Source of the DNA: Gemmatimonadaceae bacterium
Lineage (GTDB): Bacteria; Gemmatimonadota; Gemmatimonadetes; Gemmatimonadales; Gemmatimonadaceae
Assembly: GCA_025358925.1 (NCBI GenBank)
Contig: JANYHT010000029.1
Location: forward strand, 124,001 to 188,000
Reading direction: 5' to 3'
Length of the DNA stretch: 64,000 bases
A model generated the notes under the pieces. The model was given only the letters and a program-made list of their open reading frames with translations. It had not been told where the DNA came from and searched no databases. The translations under genes were made by a program, and so were the position numbers. This document shows positions 9,002-55,633 of the stretch, piece by piece (within the stretch, counting starts at the first letter, position 1; every line of letters begins with the position of its first letter).

Positions 9002-9652
9002 GTGAGAAAACTCTACCTTTTAGCGACGTCTCTCGGCTTCGCTGCAGTATCCTCCGCCACGGCGCAGGTGGTGTCTGTCGCAGCGCCGGTTGTTGGAAGC
9101 ACGGTTGTGAACTTCGAGTCACTCGCACTTGGCGCAGCGGCTGCCGGTGCATTCACTGGATTCGGAGTGACCGTGAGTGGCGGATGCTTTCTCGCGAACA
9201 GCTTTGCCTCCGCAGGGTTTGGCGCCGGAAACACAAGACAGGCCGGTAACATCCCGACTAGCAGTACCGCCTGTACAGCCGGAACCGCGCAGCAGCCAGT
9301 GACGCTCACCTTCGCCAGTTCGCTCAATTACTTCGGTTTGGTTGGCGTATCAAACAGCAACCTTGATCCCGTTGGACCAGGGCGCATCACGTTGACGAAC
9401 GTACGCGGTGCCGTGACTGTGCTAACGACCGATTTCTTCAACGGAACGAGTCCGGCGTTTGTGGGCTTCACCGATGGTCTCGGTTTTAACAGTGTCACGA
9501 TTTCCGCTGACGTGAACGGTGTGTTTGGCGTTGACAACATCAGCTTTCGCTCACCAAGCACATCGGTGCCAGAGCCGTCAACCGTTGTACTCTTTGTTGC
9601 CGGATTACTCGGCGTTTGGATTATCTCGCGTCGAAAGCATCTGACATACTGA
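9002..9652 (+). CDS. PEP-CTERM (exosortase-sorted) secreted protein
   Basis: A 216-residue exported protein with GTG start at 9002. The N-terminus is a typical signal peptide (RKLYLLATSLGFAAVSSATAQ, read in two parts) cut after about residue 22. The C-terminus has VPEPST, a hydrophobic helix and the basic tail RRK, the PEP-CTERM sorting signal for EpsH/exosortase. The middle is Gly/Ala/Thr-rich, predicted beta, with two Cys. Such proteins are surface or extracellular-matrix proteins. No exosortase gene is in the window. A strong terminator follows at 9705-9731. Confidence 0.85.
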   Translation: MRKLYLLATSLGFAAVSSATAQVVSVAAPVVGSTVVNFESLALGAAAAGAFTGFGVTVSGGCFLANSFASAGFGAGNTRQAGNIPTSSTACTAGTAQQPVTLTFASSLNYFGLVGVSNSNLDPVGPGRITLTNVRGAVTVLTTDFFNGTSPAFVGFTDGLGFNSVTISADVNGVFGVDNISFRSPSTSVPEPSTVVLFVAGLLGVWIISRRKHLTY

Positions 9653-16300: not shown

Positions 16301-17413
16301 TCAATCAGTAGTGGCCGAATTCATTCGTCGTATCGCCACCACTGCACACAATCCCACCGCAAACAACAACAATCGCAACACACTCGGCTCCGGCACCACC
16401 GTCGGCCCCACCGTATCAAATGCACCATTCAAAAACGCCTGCACACGTCCCGGCGCTCGCAACGAAGAAAATGCAAACGTCAACACGCGATTATCGTCGT
16501 CGAGATTGAACTCGTCGCGCTGATGCACGAAACCGAGAAAGACACCGGTACCCACACCAGTGCGGAGATCAAGCCAATCGTCAGGTGGTAAAAAATTGTC
16601 AACCATCCATCCGTCGGCTGGTGCGATGTCGAAAATGCCGGCACCATGCGTCTCGATCTGAAACACCGCCATCGGACCTCCGCTCAGCCACGTCGTGGTA
16701 TACGTATAGCGAAACAGCGGACCGGTTGTCGTGACGGATGCGACCACGTCGATTTTCGTATCGTTGTTATTTGCCAGATACGTTGCTTGCAGCTCAGCGA
16801 TGTCGCCGACACCGGTATGATCTGACAACGGCAGTTCGTCGTCGGTGCGGATGGTCGGGTACATCACGTCCAAATTACTTTTGCCGTGCCCAACGCCAAG
16901 CACGTGCCCCATCTCATGCGCACCAAGATTAAACGCTTCTTTCAGATTGGTGACGCCGCGATCAATCTCCATTTCGCCAGCAGTTGGCGTATGATTGCCA
17001 CTCGCGTCTTTCACGTTTGGATCGTACGCCGGACCACCTTCGCCTTGATGTTTGTTACCGTCCGCATCTTTGACCGTGCCGGCTGGAGACCACTTCACGC
17101 TGACGACATTTGGCACATTTACTGCGGACGCAACATCAGTCACGGCGAGTTTGATATTGCGATTCTTGAGCGTCGGATCGTCAAACCACAGCTTCATGCC
17201 CGCAATAAGCTTCGCGCGCCGTCCAGGTAACGCACCCGCATCTGGATCAGGCGGTAGGTAGACGGTGATGGTCGTGTTGTTCCCCCATCGCACGAGCCCG
17301 TGACTTCCTGCATCCCGCTCGGGCGATTGTGCGTTCGACGTGCGCGAAGCAAAAAGCAACACCATCGCCACACCGACGCGGCGCACCGCGTGTCCTGCTG
17401 TTTGAGTGATCAC
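16301..17413 (-). CDS. PEP-CTERM zinc metalloprotease (metzincin/matrixin type)
   Basis: A 370-residue exported protease. The GTG at 17413 has AGGA upstream and gives a signal peptide (VRRVGVAMVLLF, then SNA). The zinc site HEMGHVLGVGH (HExxHxxGxxH) and the following VMYPT Met-turn define the metzincin clan, closest to matrixins. A second, beta-rich domain follows, then VPEPSV, a hydrophobic helix and RRMN: a PEP-CTERM sorting tail. So this should be an exosortase-processed, surface or secreted protease. A longer frame to 17584 exists but has no signal peptide at its start. Confidence 0.88.
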   Translation of the reverse strand: MITQTAGHAVRRVGVAMVLLFASRTSNAQSPERDAGSHGLVRWGNNTTITVYLPPDPDAGALPGRRAKLIAGMKLWFDDPTLKNRNIKLAVTDVASAVNVPNVVSVKWSPAGTVKDADGNKHQGEGGPAYDPNVKDASGNHTPTAGEMEIDRGVTNLKEAFNLGAHEMGHVLGVGHGKSNLDVMYPTIRTDDELPLSDHTGVGDIAELQATYLANNNDTKIDVVASVTTTGPLFRYTYTTTWLSGGPMAVFQIETHGAGIFDIAPADGWMVDNFLPPDDWLDLRTGVGTGVFLGFVHQRDEFNLDDDNRVLTFAFSSLRAPGRVQAFLNGAFDTVGPTVVPEPSVLRLLLFAVGLCAVVAIRRMNSATTD

Positions 17414-50936: not shown

Positions 50937-51827
50937 ATGACCGACCCGCACTTGCTCATCATCGACGCGCAATCGCTTGCCGGACGCGCGGCGCACGTCG
51001 CCGCAGACGACGTGACCAACGGCGTGCGTCTCTGGTGCCAGATGGCGCGTGGTGCCTTGATGGACGTGGGGGCGACACATCTCGTGGCGGCATGGGATCA
51101 CGACGGATCCACCTTTCGACACACCCTGTTTCCCACCTACAAGCATCGGCGCACCGGAGGTATGCGCGCGCGAATCACACCCATCCGCGCTGGTATAGAA
51201 CGCACCGGGATAATCAGCATGAGTGTCGCGAACTTCGAAGGCGACGACGTCGTGGCATCATTGATGGCGCGCTTTCGCACCCAAACACGCGTGACGCTGC
51301 TCTCGAACGATTCGGACTTGTTGCAGTTCGTCAGCGATGGGGTGGACGTGGCGACGTACGTTGGCGCCGGCAAAGGATTGAACGGCACACGCATTAAGAC
51401 ATGGAGTAGCGCCGACGTCCTCGCCAAATTCGGCGTGCCGCCGACGAATCTCGCCGCGTTCAAAGCGCTATGCGGAGAAGATGGCGACGACATCCCCGGC
51501 GTAAAAAACATTGGTAAAGGGACGGCGGCAACGCTGCTGCGACGATGGCAATCGCTCGAGCAGGCACTGGAGGCGATTGAATTTGTCGGTCGTCGCGATG
51601 ATACGGCGAAACTCGCTGGCCAGCACGAGCATGCACGGTTGATGCTGCAGTTGACGACGATTCGTCAGGACGCGCCGCTGTTGGCGTGTACGCTCGAGCA
51701 GTGTATCGCGAGTGCGATCCAATGGCCGGATGGTTCGATCGCGCGCGCGGCCTCGGTCACAGTTCGGGTGGACGCTGGTCCCGGACGTGAAGACGTGCCG
51801 TTTCCCGACGAGCCGCCACCGTGGTGA
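50937..51827 (+). CDS. 5'-3' exonuclease (FEN / Pol I N-terminal domain-like)
   Basis: A 296-residue stand-alone flap-endonuclease-type nuclease. LLIIDAQSLAGRA starts the PIN-like fold. Key acidic sites are AWDHDGSTFRH (arch start, with KHRR after it), FEGDDVVASL and LLSNDSDLLQFV. The helix-hairpin-helix is CGEDGDDIPGVKNIGKGTAATLL, read in parts. Such proteins remove RNA primers or flaps; the separate polymerase I may be elsewhere. The ATG is 34 bases after the HigA stop. The frame ends in an acidic, Pro-rich tail. Confidence 0.9.
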   Translation: MTDPHLLIIDAQSLAGRAAHVAADDVTNGVRLWCQMARGALMDVGATHLVAAWDHDGSTFRHTLFPTYKHRRTGGMRARITPIRAGIERTGIISMSVANFEGDDVVASLMARFRTQTRVTLLSNDSDLLQFVSDGVDVATYVGAGKGLNGTRIKTWSSADVLAKFGVPPTNLAAFKALCGEDGDDIPGVKNIGKGTAATLLRRWQSLEQALEAIEFVGRRDDTAKLAGQHEHARLMLQLTTIRQDAPLLACTLEQCIASAIQWPDGSIARAASVTVRVDAGPGREDVPFPDEPPPW

Positions 51828-51942: not shown

Positions 51943-52110
51943 ATGCGCAAAGTCTTAGCAGCAGTGAGTTTGCTCGCGGTTTCCGCCTCGTCGGCATGGG
52001 CGCAGGGAAGTCAGGTCGTACCCGAACCGGCTAGCATGGCGTTGCTGGGTGCTGGCCTCGCCGCAGTCGGTTTCGTTGCGTGGCGTCGCAGCAAGAGCAA
52101 GAAGCCGTAG
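51943..52110 (+). CDS. Minimal PEP-CTERM protein (55 residues)
   Basis: A very short gene with clear signals: GAGGGAG at 51930-51936 and ATG at 51943. Residues 1-21 are a signal peptide (MRKVLAAVSLLAVSASSAWA), followed by only QGSQV, then VPEPAS, a hydrophobic helix (MALLGAGLAAVGFVAW) and RRSKSKK: a complete PEP-CTERM sorting tail. After signal peptidase and exosortase cleavage almost nothing would remain. It may serve as a tiny anchored peptide, a sorting decoy or regulator, or be the leftovers of a larger gene. The signal peptide resembles that of the gene at 9002. A hairpin follows. Confidence 0.8.
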   Translation: MRKVLAAVSLLAVSASSAWAQGSQVVPEPASMALLGAGLAAVGFVAWRRSKSKKP

Positions 52111-52116
52111 TAAAGG

Positions 52117-52149
52117 GCTGCACCTCGTGCGTCTCGCGCGAGGTGCAGC
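52117..52149 (+). terminator. Hairpin after the minimal PEP-CTERM gene
   Basis: GCTGCACCTCG / CGAGGTGCAGC, an 11-base-pair perfect stem with an 11-base loop that can pair further (GCG...CGC). It is 7 bases after the stop. No T-run follows, so it may be a Rho-assisted terminator or an RNA stabiliser. Confidence 0.6.
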
Positions 52150-52244
52150 GGCGACACCGAACGAACGTGATCGTCGCGTTGCGATGAGGCTTCCCTGAAC
52201 GCGTGTATTCGTCGCCAGACCGCATCCTTCACGAAAAGGTGTCT

Positions 52245-52679
52245 GTGAAAACCGCGCGCGAACTCCTCGCTCAAAAAGGCACAACAGTCGTCGCCGTCGC
52301 TCCATCGGCCACGGTGTTAGCGGCCGCCCACATTATGGGTGATGGCGGCTTCGGCGCCGTGCTTGTCATGGACGGTACGACGCTCGTTGGCATTTTCACG
52401 GAACGCGATACACTGCGTCGTGTGGTTGCTGCCGAACGTAATCCGTCCACGACGTCAGTGTCTGAAGTGATGACCACATCAATGATCACGTGCATTCCCG
52501 AAACGACGGTGGACGAGTGCGGGGCAATTATGACGCGCCATCGCATTCGTCACTTGCCCGTCGTCGACGGTGTCGAGCTGCTTGGACTGGTGAGCATCGG
52601 TGATTTGCTTGCGCACCGCGTGCGCGAACAAGAGGACACCATTCGTTATCTCAACGATTACATGTTTAACGTGCGATAG
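52245..52679 (+). CDS. CBS-domain pair protein
   Basis: A 144-residue protein made of two CBS domains: VVAVAPSATVLAAAHIMGDG then GAVLVMDGTTLVGIFTERDTL (first), and MITCIPETTVDECGAIMTRHRIRHLPVVDG then GLVSIGDLL, read in parts (second). Stand-alone CBS pairs bind adenine nucleotides and sense cell energy. The GTG at 52245 with AAAAGG before it is the best start; GTGs at 52239 and 52203 are also in frame. A strong terminator follows. Confidence 0.88.
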   Translation: MKTARELLAQKGTTVVAVAPSATVLAAAHIMGDGGFGAVLVMDGTTLVGIFTERDTLRRVVAAERNPSTTSVSEVMTTSMITCIPETTVDECGAIMTRHRIRHLPVVDGVELLGLVSIGDLLAHRVREQEDTIRYLNDYMFNVR

Positions 52680-54797: not shown

Positions 54798-55502
54798 TTA
54801 CGACGGTGGCGGCGCGAATCCCATCTCGAGCATCATCGAGAGCATGCGTCGAATTTCGGTGGACTGATCCACTTCAACGTCGGAGGCAAATTTAAAAACG
54901 GACTCATCCTGCCCCGCGCCTTGCGACGAAAACAACGTTTTCACCATAGCGACGGCGCCGCGATGGTGTTGCATCATATACGTCAAAAACAATCGATCAT
55001 AGGTTGTACCGCGTGCGGCATCGAGTTCCTTCATCTGCGCATCATTCAGCATTCCCGGCATCACGGCCATGTCACGCATGCCCGGCATCGCGACCATGAC
55101 ATGGCCTGTCATCGCGGGCATGTCGTGATTCTCGGTCAGCTGGCCCGTCGAGTCAACGTTCGGCGTAATTTGGTTGCGGTCGGCGAGCCATGTTTGCATG
55201 AGCGTGATCTCATCGGACTGCGCGTTGATGATGCGCGCGGTCAGTCGTTGCACCGACGCACTGGCGCCGTGCGTCGGTGCCCATCGGGAGATCCTGATCG
55301 CTTGCGCGTGATGATGAATCATCCCGCGCATGAAATCGACGTCGGCCTGCGTGTAGGGATACCGCAGACTATCAGCGCGCGCGCGGGCGATTGCGCCAGC
55401 TGCACCCATCACGAATACCGGAGTCGACGGTCGCGCACTGGCGCAGCCGACCGCAGCCAAGGTAAACGCGATCCGGCACGCGGTGAAACGACTCAACCGC
55501 AT
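54798..55502 (-). CDS. DUF305 lipoprotein
   Basis: A 234-residue lipoprotein with lipobox AAVGC after a signal peptide (ATG 55502). Two ferritin-like helical halves carry the DUF305 signatures: DVDFMRGMIHHHAQAI and LFLTYMMQHHRGAVAMV. A Met/His-rich linker (HDMPAMTGHVMVAMPGM, GMRDMAVMPGM) lies between them and could bind copper or silver. DUF305 proteins are often found with copper-handling genes, though none is adjacent. It is divergent from the cupin gene. Confidence 0.88.
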   Translation of the reverse strand: MRLSRFTACRIAFTLAAVGCASARPSTPVFVMGAAGAIARARADSLRYPYTQADVDFMRGMIHHHAQAIRISRWAPTHGASASVQRLTARIINAQSDEITLMQTWLADRNQITPNVDSTGQLTENHDMPAMTGHVMVAMPGMRDMAVMPGMLNDAQMKELDAARGTTYDRLFLTYMMQHHRGAVAMVKTLFSSQGAGQDESVFKFASDVEVDQSTEIRRMLSMMLEMGFAPPPS

Positions 55503-55633
55503 TCGCAGCCGCGTGTTCGGGAGAAACCGAGAATGCCCGAGATCTTGAGACATCCGGTAAAATGTACTCGCTTCGAGTTGCTCGTGCTGGGAGGTTTGAT
55601 CACACTGTTTCACCACTCACGGGAGCTGGCACT

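Follow-up and report, generated by a model that had tools for sequence, protein, structure and literature searches.

Results

A PEP-CTERM gene with almost nothing between its signals

The window analyzed here is a 64,000-nucleotide stretch of a Gemmatimonadaceae genome (G000; 4.0 Mb, 72 contigs), and it holds a gene for a 55-residue protein with the following features and neighbors.

51943..52110, plus strand: mini-PEP-CTERM gene, 55 aa, from the ATG at 51943 to a stop codon whose last base is 52110; G018 has an orthologue, and homologues occur in five genera
51943..52002, plus strand: predicted signal peptide, residues 1 to 20, with an A-x-A signal peptidase I site (AWA), from the A-x-A rule and conservation in ten minis
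52003..52017, plus strand: linker QGSQV, five residues, the entire predicted payload
52018..52107, plus strand: PEP-CTERM tail (VPEP, hydrophobic helix, RRSKSKKP), matched by PF07589 and TIGR02595
51930..51936, plus strand: Shine-Dalgarno sequence GAGGGAG, 6 nt 5' of the ATG, read from the sequence; GGGAG kept in G018
52117..52149, plus strand: perfect inverted repeat of 15 bp with a 3-nt loop, 3' of the mini (−31.5 kcal/mol; no U-tract)
50937..51827, plus strand: 5'-3' exonuclease (PF02739 and PF01367), upstream neighbor
52203..52679, plus strand: CBS-domain protein (PF00571), downstream neighbor; arranged alike in G018

From N to C terminus, the product consists of MRKVLAAVSLLAVSASSAWA / QGSQV / VPEPASMALLGAGLAAVGFVAWRRSKSKKP. 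A longer upstream start was considered and rejected, since the ATG at 51943 is the first start codon in a 60-codon open frame. The tail scored 32.1 bits with PF07589 (cut-off, 20.7) and 29 bits with TIGR02595 (cut-off, 16), and the latter match covers residues 26 to 52 of 55, which places the tail at the extreme C terminus. The N-terminal signal peptide, as read from the sequence, has a basic start, a hydrophobic core, and A-x-A, and is common to 10/10 minis of the family described below. The mature domain between the signals, which is usual in such proteins and lies outside their formal definition, is absent, with five residues in its place. The gene agrees with a PEP-CTERM protein on the sequence criteria of Haft et al. 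2006 (PMC1569441) that were tested. The preliminary description of this DNA had given the product the same anatomy and had noted a ribosome binding site and a following hairpin; the model matches, the GAGGGAG, and the 15-bp stem bear it out. The stem is kept in G018 with one loop change, and the hairpin probably marks the end of the transcript; a terminator scan found no canonical terminator at 52117-52149, and no sigma-70-like promoter was found.

The window genome carries 18 PEP-CTERM tails above the cut-off, and the window gene is the only miniature among them: the remaining 17 frames span 189 to 428 aa, against the 60-aa open frame of the mini. Two of these tails also lie inside the window (9563-9634, plus strand, and 16325-16396, minus strand) in full-size frames of 240 and 428 aa. 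The exosortase of G000 was recovered as a C-terminal fragment (51 bits) at the end of contig C36, with a DUF3485 gene after it; that of the sister species G018 is full-length. An exosortase was detected in 6/8 mini-bearing genomes of the family, counting the G000 fragment, and genome searches did not find one in G269 and G277, both of which are incomplete assemblies.

The minis form a family within the Gemmatimonadaceae

In G018 the gene recurs at equal length (93% amino acid identity) with the same genes on either side, and only this close sister shares the arrangement around the window mini. G017 carries a 60-aa homologue (63% identity, E value = 1.6 × 10−12), which is an oxidase-linked copy (see below). 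A profile built from three members (A1) and run against 395 genomes of the phylum recovered further full-length copies only within the Gemmatimonadaceae. With profile A2, ten minis of 53 to 77 aa, in eight genomes and five genera, scored 72 to 93 bits across the 179 Gemmatimonadaceae genomes (the window gene, itself among the profile members, scored 86.5), and ordinary PEP-CTERM proteins and everything else scored 55 bits or less; because A2 was built from the very ten minis that it recovers, the evidence lies in this separation and not in the absolute scores. In the alignment of the ten, the equivalents of M1, A15, and A20 are invariant and that of A18 is nearly so; what is conserved is the start, A-x-A, PEP, the helix, and the basic end. 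Sites of the GGAG, GGAGG, or GGGAG type precede most of the other minis.

Three stand-alone minis without an adjoining oxidase, all on minus strands, gave lower scores with the family profile: L329 (G351:C168:2646-2825; 60 aa), L330 (G402:C297:275-460; 62 aa), and L331 (G023:C145:12435-12593; 52 aa). These possibly arose independently. Other short PEP-CTERM frames, among them those on G009:C199, G009:C131, and G011:C190, were rejected because they lack a signal peptide and are either cut off at a contig edge or only the C-terminal part of a protein. Across the whole genome collection, the pattern GGAG-ATG-[KR]K-...-VPEP matched at least 118 stretches, and no mini was present at the loci inspected among the matches listed. 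A DUF305 gene lies close to the mini in the window (54798-55616, minus strand) and in G244 (L116 18750-19068, plus strand; recognized by eye), which is probably a coincidence.

The relatives searched contain short homologues and no longer orthologue of the window gene. Its derivation from a longer protein by deletion was rejected on these grounds, given short copies in five genera; together with the selection described below, the same-length homologues support the earlier view that the gene is not a fragment.

Most minis follow a single clade of copper amine oxidases

In six species from five genera (G017, G244, G269, G329, G277, and G112), a mini or a tandem pair of minis lies directly downstream of a copper amine oxidase gene on the same strand, with the mini start about 100 to 280 nt past the oxidase stop. 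The tandem pairs are those of G329 (G329:C52:86473-86854; L082, L114) and G269 (G269:C135:11754-12442; L083, L115), in which the signals are kept and the linkers have diverged. The hairpins 3' of each mini or tandem pair are strong (−21 to −34 kcal/mol), whereas those in the oxidase-mini gaps are mostly weaker (−11 to −22 kcal/mol).

We found 25 PF01179 genes in 23 of the 179 family genomes. The mini-linked oxidases are 41 to 58% identical to the G017 query, against 39% or less for the remainder, and the six form one clade (support, 92/87; one label change, in 94% of bootstrap trees). A mini is present at 6/6 oxidases of this clade and at 0/19 of the other family oxidases examined (Fisher test, P value = 6 × 10−6, uncorrected for ancestry). 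G017 and G244 provide an internal control, since each also has another oxidase, of the ordinary kind, that no mini accompanies. The clade scores 586 to 620 bits, under the 651-bit cut-off of PRK11504 (primary-amine oxidase). All six linked oxidases have lipobox-like signals (predicted lipoproteins), and such signals also occur in three unlinked ones. Since the positions of the copper-ligand histidines and the cofactor tyrosine are invariant in all full-length oxidases, the partner looks active from its sequence. Gene order and the clade-wide association show that, in the Gemmatimonadaceae, minis mostly stand at the end of an operon that also contains a copper amine oxidase of the lipoprotein type.

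The window copy lacks this partner. The gene upstream of it is the 5'-3' exonuclease and not a copper amine oxidase, genome searches gave no PF01179 match in G000 or G018, and the window contains no oxidase remnant. The tie was invisible to the preliminary description because the window species lost, or never had, the oxidase.

The tail of one tandem pair is under selection, and the linkers vary

The tails of the two G329 tandem copies differ by nine synonymous changes and one nonsynonymous change (P value = 4 × 10−5), and their linkers are unrelated; the tail in this pair is under purifying selection. Between G000 and G018, the mini has six changes (four nonsynonymous and two synonymous, none at second codon positions), too few to show codon-level selection for the window copy. 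Codon-level selection, which the preliminary description had proposed as a check, is shown for the tandem tail and not for the window copy. At the nucleotide level, these 6 differences in 168 nt compare with 15 in the 115 nt of the upstream spacer (P value = 3 × 10−5; P value = 0.002 against pooled spacers). Synonymous divergence between G000 and G018:C215 is 0.03 to 0.05 in the mini versus 0.28 in the adjoining CBS gene, as if the nucleotide sequence were constrained or had been recently exchanged.

The mini linkers, by contrast with the signals, run from 5 to 29 residues and are conserved in neither length nor sequence, and tandem copies can carry linkers as different as TITT and GVPVT. The residue following A-x-A (position +1) is Gly in 7/8 oxidase-linked minis, and each of the five unlinked minis has Gln or Leu there (Gln in the window and G018; the others are G351, G402, and G023). 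By a rough cleavage rule, +1 is Gly in 3/56 ordinary PEP-CTERM proteins. A Trp near the helix end is also commoner in the minis (6/9, versus 4/73 ordinary tails; P value = 4 × 10−5). As the mini copies share ancestry, neither the Gly nor the Trp counts are independent. This pattern says that mini function resides in the membrane segment and the processing signals and not in cargo.

Discussion

The window gene is real and belongs to a family, and the position of its relatives behind one type of copper amine oxidase suggests that minis work with a membrane partner enzyme. Our preferred reading, to which we assign a probability of about 0.5, is that the mini serves an amine-oxidase operon as an accessory peptide anchored in the membrane and is a probable exosortase substrate, with the window copy an orphan of unchanged architecture that lacks its partner. 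Sec would export the window peptide and signal peptidase I would cut after A20, leaving a 35-residue peptide. Five residues of it would project into the periplasm, PEP would sit where the chain meets the membrane, a single helix would cross it, and the basic tail would lie in the cytoplasm; the preliminary suggestion of a small membrane peptide fits this anatomy. Exosortase probably cuts near PEP, because all the recognition features of an exosortase substrate are kept. The likeliest role of a mini would be to help hold or place the oxidase at the membrane, or to receive its action there. As neither the window species nor its sister has the oxidase, the window copy would be an orphan, either with another partner or as a recent leftover, and the presence of the mini in both without a detected oxidase indicates that the gene can be retained over such a distance without the partner. 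Counting against an accessory role are the minis of G351, G402, and G023, which have no adjoining oxidase, and those of G269 and G277, in whose genomes no exosortase was detected.

The preliminary description had proposed that a cargo-less mini occupies exosortase and so sets the rate at which the 17 full-length PEP-CTERM proteins are processed. A genome with an exosortase and that many other tails, and a family in which conservation is limited to the signals around a variable linker, would fit such a decoy. We nevertheless consider it unlikely: it leaves the clade-wide oxidase link unexplained, and there would be little to tune in G329 and G277, where a single other PEP-CTERM tail was detected besides the two minis and the one mini, respectively, the latter genome also having no detected exosortase. 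At least in part, the evidence points to something other than exosortase tuning: in the relatives, the mini is coupled to a gene for a copper amine oxidase. We are equally doubtful that what matters is the short peptide freed by signal peptidase and exosortase, to be attached to the surface or secreted. The two predicted cuts would release roughly 5 to 30 residues, in oxidase-linked minis mostly beginning with Gly, but beyond this Gly the linkers have no common sequence, even between tandem copies. Less probable still is a substrate relationship, in which the oxidase-linked minis would be acted upon by their own copper amine oxidase through the N-terminal Gly that signal peptidase exposes. This Gly would present a primary amine on a CH2, as does aminoacetone, which a mammalian copper amine oxidase is reported to accept as a substrate (PMC3251558). 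Once oxidized, the Gly would become a reactive aldehyde at the end of a peptide held in the membrane and processed by exosortase, and this aldehyde could form cross-links with envelope or exopolysaccharide amines; oxidase and glycine would both have been lost in the window lineage.

Two further explanations concern the window copy itself. It may be a remnant, not yet decayed and without present function, left behind by loss of the oxidase or relocation of the mini, as the missing oxidase in G000 and G018 and the four nonsynonymous versus two synonymous changes between them would allow. Both species nonetheless keep an intact frame, Shine-Dalgarno sequence, signal site, PEP tail, and hairpin, the mini has changed far less than the spacer beside it, and no trace of an oxidase is present in the window, so that we rate this as improbable, on a par with the decoy. 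That the gene is a chance ORF, a deletion product, or an annotation artifact is very improbable: its shortness and the lack of a longer frame would fit, but it is contradicted by equally long homologues across five genera, by their conserved context, and by the purifying selection seen in one tandem pair.

PEP-CTERM tails are thought of as addresses on cargo. Here address and cargo come apart, in a conserved family whose members consist almost wholly of the address, carry no cargo, and go with a single enzyme clade, and the minis offer a minimal substrate for testing exosortase: where it cuts, what is attached, and whether the tail alone functions. In the literature searched, "exosortase" and "amine oxidase" do not occur together in any paper, and the sections of Haft et al. 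2006 (PMC1569441) consulted make no mention of cargo-less PEP-CTERM members in an enzyme operon.

The closest known system is PEP-CTERM/exosortase (EpsH; PF07589/TIGR02595), whose tail is defined in that paper as a module some 24 residues long. The window gene shares its signal peptide, PEP, helix, and basic cluster, and the window genome has the exosortase fragment and the DUF3485 gene. It differs in having 5 residues where the genome's other PEP-CTERM proteins have well over 100; the minis as a group differ in their commoner Trp near the helix end, and the relatives in being partners in an enzyme operon, whereas most PEP-CTERM genes are reported to be single-gene operons (Haft et al. 2006, PMC1569441). 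The partner of the relatives resembles known copper amine oxidases (PF01179; primary-amine oxidase, PRK11504) in its enzyme domain, copper-ligand histidines, and cofactor tyrosine; its clade differs in its sub-cut-off score, its lipobox-like signals, and its absence from the window genome. AcrZ has no sequence relation to the minis. To our knowledge, it has neither a cleaved signal nor a sorting tail. The likeness lies in the manner of working only: AcrZ is a short, one-helix membrane protein that modifies a larger partner, AcrB (PMC7267776).
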